From contig JAGFND010000011.1 in the NCBI GenBank assembly GCA_021409285.1, forward strand, positions 1 through 36,334: a DNA stretch of 36,334 nt, read 5' to 3'. Numbering within the stretch: the first letter of the stretch is position 1; the number at the start of each line of letters is the position of its first letter. A program made the translations under genes and the position numbers. The notes below the pieces were generated by a model. It was not told where the DNA came from. It ran no database searches and saw nothing but the letters and a program-made list of their open reading frames with translations. The DNA comes from Candidatus Methanoperedens sp. (GTDB lineage Archaea; Halobacteriota; Methanosarcinia; Methanosarcinales; Methanoperedenaceae). Positions 25,595 to 30,946 of this stretch are shown piece after piece.

Positions 25595-26152
25595 ATGACT
25601 CTAAGAATCGCATGGGGAATTACAGGTTGCGGCGACTATCTGAAAGAAAGCATTGAGATAATGGAAGAACTCACAAAAGATCATGATCTTGAGGTAAGGG
25701 TTTTCCTTTCACAGGCTGGGGAGATGGTCGTAAAATGGTATAAACTTTATACAAATCTGAAGACGAGTTTCCCTAAAACATATAGCGAAAGGTCGCCCAA
25801 CGTCCCTTTTCTGGCGGGTGATCTACAGATCGGGAAATATGATTTCATGCTTATCATGCCATCGACCTCAAATACAGTCGGCAAGATCGCTGCAGGAATA
25901 TCTGATACCCTGCTGTCAAATGCAGCGGCTCAGGCCATGAAGGCTAAAGTGAAGGTGTATATTTTTCCAGCAGACCAGAGACCGGGAGATATCGTAACGG
26001 ATCTGCCCGGTGGGAAAAAGCTCACGCTCACGATGAGGGATGTGGACATAGAGGCCGTTGATAAATTAAGGAAAATGTCAGGGATCACTATTCTCTCGCA
26101 TCCGAATGAGATCCGCGAGATAATAGAAAAACATATCAAGAGCGGAAAATAG
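25595..26152 (+). CDS. afpA: Archaeoflavoprotein AfpA / DmrB-like flavoprotein
   Basis: 185 residues of flavoprotein fold. ITGCGDYLKES at the N-terminus, LIMPSTSNTVGKIAAGISDTL and SNAAAQAMKAKVKVYIFPAD are typical of AfpA and of the dihydromethanopterin reductase DmrB. AfpA accepts electrons from ferredoxin and reduces Isf; DmrB instead completes tetrahydromethanopterin synthesis. Close coupling to isf (14-base gap) favours AfpA. It is transcribed away from the McrC/Por operon. Confidence 0.85.
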   Translation: MTLRIAWGITGCGDYLKESIEIMEELTKDHDLEVRVFLSQAGEMVVKWYKLYTNLKTSFPKTYSERSPNVPFLAGDLQIGKYDFMLIMPSTSNTVGKIAAGISDTLLSNAAAQAMKAKVKVYIFPADQRPGDIVTDLPGGKKLTLTMRDVDIEAVDKLRKMSGITILSHPNEIREIIEKHIKSGK

Positions 26153-26153
26153 C

Positions 26154-26684
26154 TCATTTTTTTTCATATTCAAAATAACTGCAGGTATTCCCGGCGCATC
26201 TGATGATTTTTCCTTTCACGGTATTTTTTATTAATATTAGCTCGACAACGCTGGGTTCTGCGATTCCTGGAATTGTGATGCTGCCGGGTGAGATAAGGAG
26301 AACTTCTGATTTTTCCACAATCGCGTGGTGGAAATGCCCGAATATAAGGATATCGACGTTCATCTCTTTTGCGAGATATCGGAGTCCGTCTGTGTTTTCT
26401 GATGTGAGCTGCCCTTTGTGGATTATCCCGATCCTTACGCCTTCAATTTTAATAACCCTGCGCTCCGGAAGGAATTCCATCAGTTCGGGACTGTCCGTAT
26501 CCCCATGAACCGCTATGATCTTCCCCAGAGTCATCAGTTCATCATAACATTCAAGAGTATCAAAATCCCCTGCATGGATAATGAGATCTGAGCTTTTAAT
26601 AATGGATTTCAGGTCATTCGATAAGAGTGGAAGCAGCGATTTCCCTGGCTTTATATGTGTGTCTGATAGGATTATGAGTTTCAT
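26154..26684 (-). CDS. Metallophosphoesterase (YfcE/MJ0936 family)
   Basis: 176 residues. Metal ligands: Asp8 and His10 (LSDTHI), the Asp of HAGDFD, and the GHFHHA motif. The usual GNHD/GNCD position reads HGDTD, so the normal Asn is replaced; this may alter metal or substrate handling. Family members hydrolyse phosphodiesters, with natural substrate unknown. It is convergent with afpA across a very short gap. Confidence 0.9.
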   Translation of the reverse strand: MKLIILSDTHIKPGKSLLPLLSNDLKSIIKSSDLIIHAGDFDTLECYDELMTLGKIIAVHGDTDSPELMEFLPERRVIKIEGVRIGIIHKGQLTSENTDGLRYLAKEMNVDILIFGHFHHAIVEKSEVLLISPGSITIPGIAEPSVVELILIKNTVKGKIIRCAGNTCSYFEYEKK

Positions 26685-26770
26685 TGATTCAGGCTATTGT
26701 CTTATGAGGATGAAGTTGTTTTGGGTAAATTATAGTTTATATACTATGACAAAAATTAATAAGTGTATAA

Positions 26771-27030
26771 TATGGATGGAACCAATTTTCTGAACAGGCA
26801 GCAAGAGATAATATTGATAATCTTACAAAAGCAGAACGGGTAAAAGACGATGTTGAAAAAGCCACGGAAATTGTAAATGATTTTTCTATGTACATGAAAG
26901 AGAAAACGATGAAAGCCTTGCTGATCTGGATAACCTGCCCGATCCGGATATACTGGCAAATGATATTATTGAAAATGTAGAAGCTGGACTTGAGGGTTTT
27001 AGAGAAATAGTTGAAACTATAAATGGTTAA
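26771..27030 (+). pseudogene. C-terminal remnant of a type I restriction-modification subunit
   Basis: Two overlapping frames join into one protein-like tail: WNQFSEQAARDNIDNLTKAE and KATEIVNDFSMYMKE in one frame, then NDESLADLDNLPDPDILAND and IIENVEAGLEGFREIVE in another, ending at TAA 27028. The switch is near 26900 (two extra bases or one missing). The end resembles C-termini of type I HsdM (or HsdR) proteins, with their LPDPDxLAxxIxxxLEAxLExFREI pattern. No upstream catalytic domain remains. It explains most of the 26685-27140 gap. Confidence 0.5.
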
Positions 27031-27140
27031 ACTGTCATAATAGTTGAAGTATTGATAAGAAACCATAATAGCAGAATTGGATTAGAAAAGAGGGTCAAAA
27101 TGTTTGGGTTAACCATACCTGGCAGTCAGGAGACGGAAAT

Positions 27141-28490
27141 GTGACCGACAGCTTTAACATGAAAATACTATTGATTTGTGCAATTATTGCAATTGCTGCT
27201 GCATTGATATCCCCAATGCAAATCTCAGCCCGGTCTGAAAAGATTCCGAAAAATCCTGAAATCTCAAAAATGAGCACGGAAATGAACGCCTTCGCCGATG
27301 TAAATGTAGAACCTGAGGGATATTGTTTCTTCATTATCAGAAACTGAAAAAGAGATTATTTTTGAATCCAATCTTAAATATGAAAAGACTAATCAAGAAA
27401 TGATCCAGGAAATTCTAACCAATACCAAAATAATGATTTTAATGTTTCCATAAATGTTTCGAATCTGGGAGCTATATCAGCTCATAATGTAAATCTTACT
27501 TTGTCTATGCCATCTGGATTTACAATTATTTCAGGTTCAAATTTCTATAGTCTGGGAAGTATATCTGCTGGAAACCTGAAAAATGTCTCTCTGACGATAT
27601 GTTCACCATCTGCAGAGGGAAATATTGACTCTACATCACTTTTTATGATCGCAAATCCCACTCGCTATGAGTCTTTATTCAGTGCCGCAAAGAACGGAAG
27701 CAAAATTGCTGTTAATGCAACGATTTTCGATGCAGTTTCAGGTATTAAAAACGCCACATTTGATGCAACGGGTTGCTCGGCCTTATGCCATGCAGGGGAA
27801 AATGCAGACGTCAAAGCCTTTGGCAATAAATATACTCCAAATACAGGTGAGATGGCAGACCTCTGGCATATGAAGATGGTGCGAACAAACCCGACAGGTT
27901 ATATGGACGACCAGTATGTGGACTGCATGGATTACAGCAAAGATATGCCAGATGCCGGGAGGCGCTCAGATCCCGGAGGCAGCCCATACTCTGACAACAT
28001 CAACGCCGCCAAGACAGCTCCAAATTATACCTCGGCAGACCAGCCCGCACCGCCATACTGGATATTTGATGAGCAGAAGCAGCTATTCAATGATACATAC
28101 AAGACTAACGATGAGATAGCGGGCATTATTGTAATGCCTCCGACAGGGGATAGGGCGGACATAATGGGTAAGGCTGTCTATAAGGACGGCATCTGGACGC
28201 TTGAATATGGCAGGAAGATGAACACCGGAAGCAAGTACGATGTTCAGTTCACAGATATGAATAAGGAATACTCATTCGGGACAGCAATATTCGATAATGC
28301 CCAGACCAGGCACATCTATGAGACTGACGTGAGCAAGCTGGTTTTTGCTGCGCAAGCCACCCCAACACCAACTTCCACCCCAGCACCAATTTCAACTCCA
28401 ACTCCGGTAGCAACAAAGAACACACCAGCTTTTGAAGCGCTACTGGCTATTTCAGCGCTGTTTGCAGCAGTACTGGTCAAAAGAAGGTAA
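27141..28490 (+). pseudogene. Frameshifted EB_dh-type haem-binding surface protein
   Basis: A single gene split by two compensating indels: frame A at 27141-27317, frame B at 27319-27431, then frame A again to 28490. The GTG start has AGGAG eight bases ahead. Order: signal peptide (MKILLICAIIAIAAALISP), a CARDB-like beta domain (FNVSINVSNLGAISAHNVN), then an ethylbenzene-dehydrogenase-like haem domain (ADLWHMKMVRTNPTGYMDDQ). A haem-like motif CSALCH (C-x3-C-H) precedes that domain. The end is a Pro/Thr-rich spacer and TPAFEALLAISALFAAVLVKRR-like PGF-CTERM anchor. In the intact form it would be an extracellular, membrane-anchored haem protein. The indels could be assembly errors. Confidence 0.7.
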
Positions 28491-28531
28491 AACAATACCT
28501 TACTTTTTTTCATTTTTTAAGGAGATATCAA

Positions 28532-28654
28532 ATGACAAAAATAATGCATGTACAAAAAGCAGTATCTCATTATCCTGAGTGCGAATATACTGAAGTAGAA
28601 GATATGTGGGCTAAGAAACTCGATAAAGTAATAAAAAGAAAACAGAAAGAATGA
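28532..28654 (+). CDS. Small 40-residue protein
   Basis: MTKIMHVQKAVSHYPECEYT followed by a basic tail. The start has a strong AAGGAG ribosome binding site nine bases upstream, 40 bases after the haem-protein gene. No family is recognised; the HYPEC segment might contact a metal. The strong translation signal is the main support. Confidence 0.5.
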   Translation: MTKIMHVQKAVSHYPECEYTEVEDMWAKKLDKVIKRKQKE

Positions 28655-28873
28655 GAACAATAAGTCTGTCTTACTTTGAGGTTGTACTGTTCACTTCGTC
28701 TAAAGACATACTTTTTCTGAGTTTCATGCCACTAACTTAGATATTAAACAGATAGATTAATTTTCTGTACTTTAGTAAAATTAATAAATTGTGAATTTCT
28801 GTAATAACAAGAAATATATTTGTATGAAAGTATTGTAGAATCGTACAAAGAAATGTACTTGAGAAGTATAAAA

Positions 28874-28917
28874 CCCATAGGAGTGGGAACTTATGGGAAA
28901 GGATTTTTTTCCTTTCC
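28874..28917 (+). other. Two inverted repeats in the leader of the next gene
   Basis: CCCATA (28874-28879) pairs with TATGGG (28892-28897), and GGAAAGG (28896-28902) pairs with CCTTTCC (28911-28917) around a T-rich loop. The arms of the two hairpins overlap by two bases, so they are nearly mutually exclusive. They lie 60-100 bases before a gene with a near-perfect ribosome binding site, within a 320-base gap (28655-28976) where I see no gene. It could be a terminator for the small gene or a regulatory leader. Confidence 0.35.
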
Positions 28918-28976
28918 TTCCTTTTCATTTCGGGGGTAAATAGGACATAAAAAAAAAAAGAATATCAGGAGGGATT

Positions 28977-29159
28977 ATGAGATACTCAAGAGGAGATGTT
29001 GTAGAATTTAAGATAGGATCAAATGAAAAACATACCGGGCAGGTTCGATTTGTCGAAGAGGATTACAATGAGAATATATTTTATGTAGACAGTTTTAGCG
29101 GGTGGGCATACAAAGTCCCTGAAAAAAGAATAATATCGCGGGTATCAAAACTACCATAA
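28977..29159 (+). CDS. Small SH3-like hypothetical protein
   Basis: A 60-residue protein with an AGGAGG ribosome binding site four bases before ATG. The sequence (YSRGDVVEFKIGSNEKHTG, FVEEDYNENIFYVD, KVPEKRIISRV) reads as five short strands, resembling small SH3/KOW-like barrels such as DUF2187. It may bind nucleic acid or another protein; no function is assigned. Confidence 0.75.
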   Translation: MRYSRGDVVEFKIGSNEKHTGQVRFVEEDYNENIFYVDSFSGWAYKVPEKRIISRVSKLP

Positions 29160-29220
29160 TATATATCAGTACTAAAAAGTTTTTATCTGTTTAATTTTCC
29201 TTTGATGGGGTTGAGTGAGG

Positions 29221-29499
29221 ATGAAGAGGCTACTATGGCAAATGTTAGCAGGAACGCGAGGTGGATATACACGCGGATTTATCCTTAATAAGCTTGCCGA
29301 TAAGCCCTATGATACAAATCAATTAGTTGAAGCTTTGAATATCGATTATCAAACTACCAGTCACCATCTCGATGTCCTTGCCAATAATGGAATAATCACA
29401 ACTGGAGGCGACAAATACTGTAGAATATATTTTCTTTCCAAAGATATGGAGGCAAATTTGAAAGATTTCAATCAAATTTGGGAAAAAATCAATGGGTAA
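29221..29499 (+). CDS. Winged-helix transcription regulator (ArsR-like)
   Basis: 92 residues from ATG 29221; GTG 29215 is an alternative start and both share the GGGG-containing leader. The helix-turn-helix region (RGFILNKLADKPYDTNQLVE, LNIDYQTTSHHLDVLANNGI) is of the small single-domain regulators common in Methanosarcinales. The recognition helix is QTTSHHLDVL, followed by a wing (ITTGGDKYCRIYFLS). No sensor domain is attached. The target is not evident. Confidence 0.88.
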   Translation: MKRLLWQMLAGTRGGYTRGFILNKLADKPYDTNQLVEALNIDYQTTSHHLDVLANNGIITTGGDKYCRIYFLSKDMEANLKDFNQIWEKING

Positions 29500-29612
29500 A
29501 GACGGTTTCTTGTTTCTATTTTTCTGGTCTATTCGTTTATAGCTTCTGATAATAAATTCCTTTTTATTACCAAAATGATTATGCTTGCTGTGAACAAATA
29601 CGCAGGTAACCA

Positions 29613-30101
29613 ATGAACATCAATAAGATAACAGGAAGGATCTGGAAATTCGGTAATAATATCGATACGGATGTCATCATCCCTGGAAAATACCTGCGAA
29701 CTACTGATATGAGCGTATTCGCATCGCACGTCATGGAAGGCATCGATCCGCAGTTCTACAGGAAAGTAAAAAAAGGAGATATAATAGTAGCCGGTGAAAA
29801 TTTTGGATCTGGCTCCTCAAGAGAACAGGCGCCTCTAGCTCTAAAGCACGCAGGTGTAGCATGCATTGTGGCCGGATCGTTCGCAAGGATATTTTTCAGG
29901 AACGCCATAAATATCGGACTTCCGATAATAGAGGCAAAGATCGAATGTGAAGAAGGAGATACCATCGAAATAGACCTTGAGAAAGGGATTGTGAAAAATA
30001 AAGAGAAGATTTTTTCCGGGACAAGACTTCCGGATTTCCTTCGCGAGATGCTGGCAGATGGCGGTCTTATTGAACACAGGAAAAAGCAGGCTTTTCAATG
30101 A
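29613..30101 (+). CDS. hacB: Homoaconitase/isopropylmalate dehydratase small subunit
   Basis: 162 residues. Swivel domain of aconitase-type hydro-lyases: [33 protein letters not shown] and [18 protein letters not shown]. The substrate loop Y27-L-R-T30 is the form found in methanogen homoaconitase (coenzyme B pathway); isopropylmalate enzymes usually have YLVY/YLVM. This suggests the AksE role rather than leucine synthesis, though dual use is possible. The large subunit is not in the window. Its stop overlaps the next gene (ATGA). Confidence 0.92.
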
Positions 30102-30946
30102 TATTCCCGTCGGATTATAAAAGCGTTGGAATGACAAGGACTGAACCAACCGGGCGAATCGGATGCGCAATTTATTTCACAACGGAATATCTGATAGCTG
30201 ATCTGCCATCTGGATACTTTATTTATAAAGTGAAAAGCGAAGGCGAGGGTCTGTTAAGAAAACTTGTTTCGCTCACGCTGATAGCAAATGGCAGCAGGAT
30301 AACGAAATTTGGAGAAAAACTTGATTCTCATGACAGAACCCGGCTTATCGAATCAGCGATACCGCTTTGTAAGGGGAATATTGACACTGTTATTTTTGAA
30401 GGGATGGACAAGCATGTCACTTTTGTCAAAGATCCAAGCCTTCTTGACGTCATGGAGATAGAAATAATAGATATTACTCCGCCTGAACCGCCTTGGCTTG
30501 CCCTTGCCATCGAGAGACTTAATAAGAGCGGGATCCTTGGCGAATTGAATATCAGATTTACAGAGAAGCTCATCGACCTTCGGCAATTTGAAGGTGAAAA
30601 GATGGTATTTCCATGCCACGCTTCAGAACTCAGAGGAAAATATCTTGATACTGATATTGATATTGAGAACAATTCAGAACTTGTGGGATGTGATATCTCA
30701 AAACAGATATTTGACCTTCGTTTTCCAGATCTTATTTACAAACATATCAACATGTGTCCTCTGAAAGCGGAAATGTACATGCCCACAAGACCGTTCATCA
30801 CACGATGCTGCCAGAGCAAGAAATCTGGAATGGTTAACATCAATGGGATCGATGGAGCTGTGGTCCACTGGGGAGCTTCTGAATACGATATTGTTGATGC
30901 GATAAGGATGTTGGTAAATGTTTTAAAAGGTATTCAAGTATCATGA
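30098..30946 (+). CDS. Unknown protein coupled to the hacB and aksF/leuB genes
   Basis: 282 residues, soluble and not confidently recognised. It begins with a MIFPSDYKS lead into a [20 protein letters not shown] strand pair. Cysteines cluster in [25 protein letters not shown] and [11 protein letters not shown], which may bind metal. It is joined to both neighbours by ATGA overlaps, so all three proteins should be made in step. A function in 2-oxoacid elongation or coenzyme B synthesis is inferred only from this position. Confidence 0.85.

Follow-up and report, generated by a model that had tools for sequence, protein, structure and literature searches.

A probable composite, decaying EB_dh haem-protein pseudogene beside leuD in a Candidatus Methanoperedens-like genome

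Ethylbenzene dehydrogenase gamma (2ivf_C) and the nitrite oxidoreductase protein NXR-C (7b04_C), which resemble the predicted fold of an intact EB_dh protein of Methanoperedens, are both described as binding haem b in the available part of PMC8387239; the EB_dh family treated here, by contrast, has a conserved C-x3-C-H motif. Proteins of related kind have been described in and around archaea. For example, the available text of PMC9605863 reports an extracellular EBDH-gamma-like haem protein, with a cohesin domain, on the Lilac Borg, an element of Methanoperedens; it is likened to the present family by its description. One-haem cytochrome c candidates of archaea, likewise comparable by description, have been modelled on ethylbenzene dehydrogenase (PMC4429474), and the text of that paper contains no match for CXXXCH or CX3CH. 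Archaeal FoxC also resembles ethylbenzene dehydrogenase gamma, according to the section available of PMC10654088. The C-x3-C-H motif itself is on record for other cytochromes, including multihaem cytochromes of Methanoperedens, in the accessible parts of four sources (PMC4683180, PMC10734462, PMC6295460, PMC6759336). A literature search that covered few subscription papers, and these and other sources in part, returned no description of C-x3-C-H as a hallmark of EB_dh proteins.

The window analysed here, a stretch of 36,334 nucleotides, is contig C13 of a 2.78-Mb, Candidatus Methanoperedens-like metagenome assembly in 246 contigs with 1.57% contamination. In a genome scan, its EB_dh protein had its nearest named relatives in Candidatus Methanoperedens assemblies. 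A sequence-only reading of positions 27141-28490 had proposed a single anchored haem protein with its own signal peptide, a motif out of the ordinary and two small compensating frameshifts. Comparison with relatives leads elsewhere: with a probability of roughly 85%, this call is a pseudogene, composite and decaying, within a stretch that is itself degraded. The damage, which had been placed at the junction of signal and haem domain alone (27317-27431), extends much further, as gene pieces span about 26783 to 28651. Taken as given, the original call would mislead annotation by adding an anchored cytochrome with a strange motif where the locus is degraded.

The motif is the simplest point to settle. 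In a genome scan with two patterns that do not contain it, C-x3-C-H was present in all 81 EB_dh ORFs at 80 loci, these being the best 80 of 165 scan matches. It was also present in 20 of 20 distinct EB_dh ORFs from loci fetched earlier (E <= 1e-20; the window's ORF excluded and its paralogue on contig C242 included), a set that overlaps with the first because both draw on Methanoperedens. Three residues between the cysteines are thus the normal state of the family rather than an oddity of this gene, and the homologues examined for a C-x2-C-H, which would have implied an error in the window, have C-x3-C-H. In a 41-sequence alignment, five residues do not vary: both cysteines and the histidine of the motif, His172 and His321 (numbered as in the first sequence of alignment A2). 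The looser pattern D.WH.K occurs in 80 of the 81 ORFs, a count partly owed to one of the scan patterns, which includes it, and RH in 79. As judged from sequence, C-x3-C-H stably marks a family of haem proteins present in Methanoperedens and many bacteria, and its conservation suggests, on the strength of the motif, that the haem is covalently bound. Cytochrome counts based on CxxCH alone would miss the haem site of these proteins.

The fold of an intact relative (L063) was predicted with a pLDDT of 83.4 and a pTM of 0.78. It matched 2ivf_C (Z 19.2, rmsd 2.5, 192 aligned positions, model residues 27-334) and 7b04_C (Z 18.3, rmsd 3.0, 205 aligned positions, model residues 21-336). Further entries of the fold search were CBM9 modules at Z 14-15, dopamine beta-hydroxylase at Z 10.8 and the cytochrome domain of cellobiose dehydrogenase at Z 8.8. 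When solved structures were searched by sequence, the CBM9 module 1i82 came first (E 0.00017) and NXR-C second (E 0.0014). NCBIfam gave weak matches only for the intact copies; those of the C242 copy, to CbsA (E 0.0007) and DMSO_red_II_gam (E 0.0045), both lie far under the cut-off.

Within the window, the EB_dh part is a 5'-truncated gene copy on the plus strand at 27746-28518, including 28 nt of 3' flank beyond the stop codon (28488-28490). It lies in a 365-codon frame without a stop (27393-28487), which contains the motif as CSALCH at 27774-27791, just as the sequence-only reading had it, and thereby the GC-x3-CH haem site, together with His172 and His321. The haem-domain claim is likewise upheld: the frame matches PF09459 with an E value of 2.4e-23 and 83.9 bits (cut-off 33.3), restricted to profile positions 75-233 of 236 since this copy is without the 5' third of the gene. 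That leaves the domain incomplete; the first ~130 residues, present in L063, are lacking, and the part lost corresponds to 7 of the 16 listed strands of the L063 model (residues 26-130), so that part of the fold shared with 2ivf_C and 7b04_C is missing. As for the proposed PGF-CTERM-like anchor, the C-terminus bears some resemblance to it, with a PF18204 score of 17.9 bits that falls just below the cut-off of 18.8. An intact 384-aa paralogue (G000:C242:7366-8517) is encoded in the same genome. It has its own signal-like N-terminus, CSALCH, a whole EB_dh domain (128.3 bits, PF09459 positions 2-232) and a PGF-CTERM above the cut-off (21.6 bits). An unrooted tree built from the shared part pairs the two copies as sisters (support 99%), and they are 88% identical at the DNA level (700 of 792 alignment columns), an identity that ends abruptly at 27746. 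Like C242 and other Methanoperedens copies (L063, L065, L070), the window copy has GC-x3-CH, the WH and RH histidines and a PGF-CTERM-like end; unlike them, it is without a signal-like start and the first ~130 residues, and it is fused to protease-type pieces.

Between the window and C242 copies, dN/dS is 0.215 (dS 0.30, 247 codons), and the haem part has therefore been under selection for much of the time since a split that, by this divergence, was fairly old. Among the changes that could be polarised, the window branch has 10 synonymous and 17 non-synonymous ones, against 10 and 11 for C242; a further 28 differences that could not be polarised stand outside these counts. With an approximate site ratio, the window branch is not clearly distinguishable from an absence of constraint (binomial P 0.057), the C242 branch gives P 0.009, and the two do not differ from each other (Fisher P 0.56). 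Likewise, among 110 sites invariant in seven other copies, six are broken in the window copy and six also in intact C242. Since these patterns show no decay, the case for a pseudogene rests on structure.

Upstream of 27746, the window holds a row of pieces from other secreted proteins, all on the plus strand. A coding-like relic in two frames (26783-26923 and 26902-27027; 26783-27027 overall) has no Pfam match over the cut-off and fits no family clearly. It is followed by a 20-codon piece of a large secreted repeat protein (27099-27158), which abuts the next piece and scores 88, with 46 for the best of five shuffles, against a repeat of a 1018-aa secreted protein encoded close to leuD in genome G012 (L060). 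The signal peptide that had been assigned to the haem protein (27159-27281) is cut off by stops from the EB_dh frame, and both it and the stretch that follows match a subtilase rather than EB_dh relatives. The closest match seen for three of the pieces is P0003 of genome G021, a subtilase with PF00082 and CARDB. The signal piece (27171-27281) scores 68 against P0003 residues 10-47, with a best shuffle of 43; by itself it is the weakest of the matches, because shuffles in a wider control of 636 ORFs reached 54, and it is backed by collinear tblastx pieces at the same locus (L062). The prodomain-region piece, in another reading frame (27319-27438), scores 107 against residues 120-159 (shuffles up to 51; tblastx 50%), and the CARDB/DUF11-like piece (27426-27626) scores 229 from residue 658 onward (shuffles up to 77; tblastx 57.5%). 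All three match P0003 in order and in different frames. In contrast to P0003, the window lacks the Peptidase S8 catalytic domain, and a search of its own genome gave no further match to the remaining protease at E <= 1e-5.

Measured against P0003, the two frame breaks are not small indels. At the first joint, 216 nt correspond to 37 nt, a net loss of 179; at the second, 1,494 nt are replaced by a 13-nt overlap, a net loss of 1,507. Both values depend on the alignment ends rather than on exact joints. What stands of the proposed frameshifts is that the middle stretch is open only in another frame; the breaks look compensating because the summed losses, 1,686 nt, are a multiple of three. Between the CARDB piece and the EB_dh part lies an Ig-like piece (27627-27757, 'IANPTRY...KNGSKIAVNATIFDAVSGIKNAT'). 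It resembles proteins that adjoin leuD in relatives and that have a subtilase domain, and it may have arrived via recombination or may be a domain of the same lost protease.

Downstream, the 3' flank of the EB_dh copy meets a DUF5371 gene (28532-28651, plus strand) in a T-rich run. This gene keeps the ribosome-binding-site-like AAGGAGAT and covers PF17341 positions 32-65 of 65, having lost 75 nt internally and in frame by comparison with four full-length copies in its own genome (L155-L158). Among the matches listed, it is the only copy that starts after model position 17. DUF5371 has nine matches in the window's genome (G000) and between one and nine in each of the 19 genus genomes searched, G000 included, with none in 14 control genomes.

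The surroundings of the locus were compared in 10 regions from 10 genomes, nine around leuD, a gene present in 31 of 31 genomes searched (the window's own included), and one around the G021 protease. A subtilase stands on the upstream side of leuD in five of the 10 regions (L053-L057), with a 408-aa open frame between the two genes in L057, and on the other side of leuD in L058; ORF listings of L059-L061 showed no subtilase. In the window, the genes on either side (phosphodiesterase, wHTH, leuD and leuB-type) have open frames, and the distance between phosphodiesterase and leuD is about 2.9 kb. The corresponding distance is about 11 kb in L053 (genome G005), the only fetched stretch that holds both genes, where the interval contains intact genes, including a large secreted protease beside leuD. 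In genome G004, matches to the two genes lie about 24 kb apart on one contig. From the comparison with G005, DNA appears to have been lost in the window lineage. As a source of the arrangement, insertion of a mobile element was rejected on the evidence of repeats, of Rfam and, as regards transposases, of the Pfam search of the pieces: the direct and inverted repeats of 26600-29700 amount to short, imperfect pairs of 14-31 nt. Rfam gave no match in 26000-30200. A viral origin was also set aside, since none of the eight pattern matches in a scan of viral contigs encodes a relative.

The composite pseudogene probably arose as follows. The interval between phosphodiesterase and leuD would have shrunk in the window lineage, leaving a row of pieces of secreted-protein genes. 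To one of these pieces, a copy of the 3' part of an EB_dh gene is joined in frame, the joint being visible at 27746 and recombination being the presumed route, and the apparent compensating frameshifts would be the joints of two deletions. Support for this reading comes from the deletion in the DUF5371 neighbour, the collinearity of the pieces with P0003, the sharp limit at 27746 and the intact C242 copy. Because a signal peptide and the beginning of the haem domain are both absent from the 365-codon frame, that frame would not be expected to yield a working exported cytochrome. Among the options of the earlier reading, that of a pseudogene is supported, although as a composite in place of a single gene with two slips.

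An unlikely alternative is that the arrangement is an artefact of assembly or binning, in which the joints stem from the assembler or from amplification chimeras of several strains and no cell carries them. The division of the genome into 246 contigs and its 1.57% contamination lend this some credit, and the EB_dh copy, which differs from C242 by 12%, could come from another strain. However, there are several joints within 2 kb, each of which would need reads across it, and the repeats of the region are no more than short, imperfect pairs (14-31 nt); the flanking genes are open, and the 75-nt loss in DUF5371 is an ordinary in-frame deletion. A more speculative idea, and a very improbable one, is that the interval is a site where pieces of surface-protein genes are repeatedly joined, the open CARDB-EB_dh frame being a newborn, expressed chimeric surface protein. 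Still less probable is a living chimeric gene, in which expression of the CARDB-EB_dh fusion either begins at an internal start or passes the middle piece by frameshifting. The 365-codon open frame, the joint at 27746 that keeps the frame, the dN/dS of the EB_dh part without an excess of broken invariant sites and the existence in relatives of 805-870-aa proteins with an EB_dh domain all agree with such a gene. Yet the first listed in-frame start, a TTG at 27501, brings no signal peptide with it, the haem fold lacks its first part, the neighbouring pieces are broken too, and two longer fusions (L032 and L033) carry the whole EB_dh domain. The original notion of one gene with two recent compensating indels, or with phase variation, can practically be discarded: a signal-like start and an anchored end do share a frame, but they match different gene families, a signal-like start and an N-terminal half of their own occupy, in intact EB_dh relatives, the place of the protease pieces, and no tandem tract lies at the breaks, the only tandem repeats within 26700-28700 being in the Pro/Thr linker at 28357-28405.

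For intact members of the family, the proposed part in outward electron transfer is plausible; it does not carry over to the copy in the window. Most likely, these intact proteins carry electrons outside the cell by means of a single haem, attached through GC-x3-CH. Their predicted EBDH-gamma-like fold, together with multihaem cytochromes beside some loci, fits outward electron transfer and suggests that they may work with multihaem conduits. A flanking ORF with three or more CxxCH was found at 14 or more of the 80 loci by one ORF filter, a low count because the filter missed locus L133, which has such an ORF. Pfam was applied to 19 flanking or neighbouring ORFs (nine and ten, one of the ten being an EB_dh ORF itself). 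Several CxxCH-rich flanking ORFs were multihaem cytochromes, several others were unrelated to electron transfer (e.g., CDP-alcohol transferase, histidine kinase and sugar-metabolism enzymes), and three of the first nine had no match. Such neighbours, with an MtrB-type porin in one case, make the role testable on intact copies.

The porin case is L133:2-3948 of Aquabacterium humicola RJY3, where a multihaem cytochrome, an MtrB/PioB porin and a C-x3-C-H EB_dh protein are encoded in a row, as if EB_dh replaced the outer-surface MtrC. The link to porins rests on this one locus, because a local search of the sequences flanking the 80 loci for further MtrB-like porins returned only the query, L133. 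In another group of eight loci (L082, L085, L091, L092, L093, L098, L099 and L101), with seven Rokubacteria-type titles and one of Nitrospirae, an ORF with four CxxCH comes after the EB_dh gene, and seven of the eight have another ORF with nine. Longer architectures also occur: L032, L033, L074, L075 and L077, all of Methanoperedens type, encode proteins of 805-870 aa with CxxCH on the N-terminal side and an EB_dh domain with C-x3-C-H, and the two that were read through, L032 and L033, have repeated Ig-like stretches as well. Short EB_dh copies in genomes G010 and G025 (contig C148) were not counted as truncated, because they run into contig ends. A further copy, on the minus strand of L162:1738-2789 (G025:C6), is shorter by a net 190 nt or so close to the 3' end, a loss that removes the conserved RH and part of the anchor.
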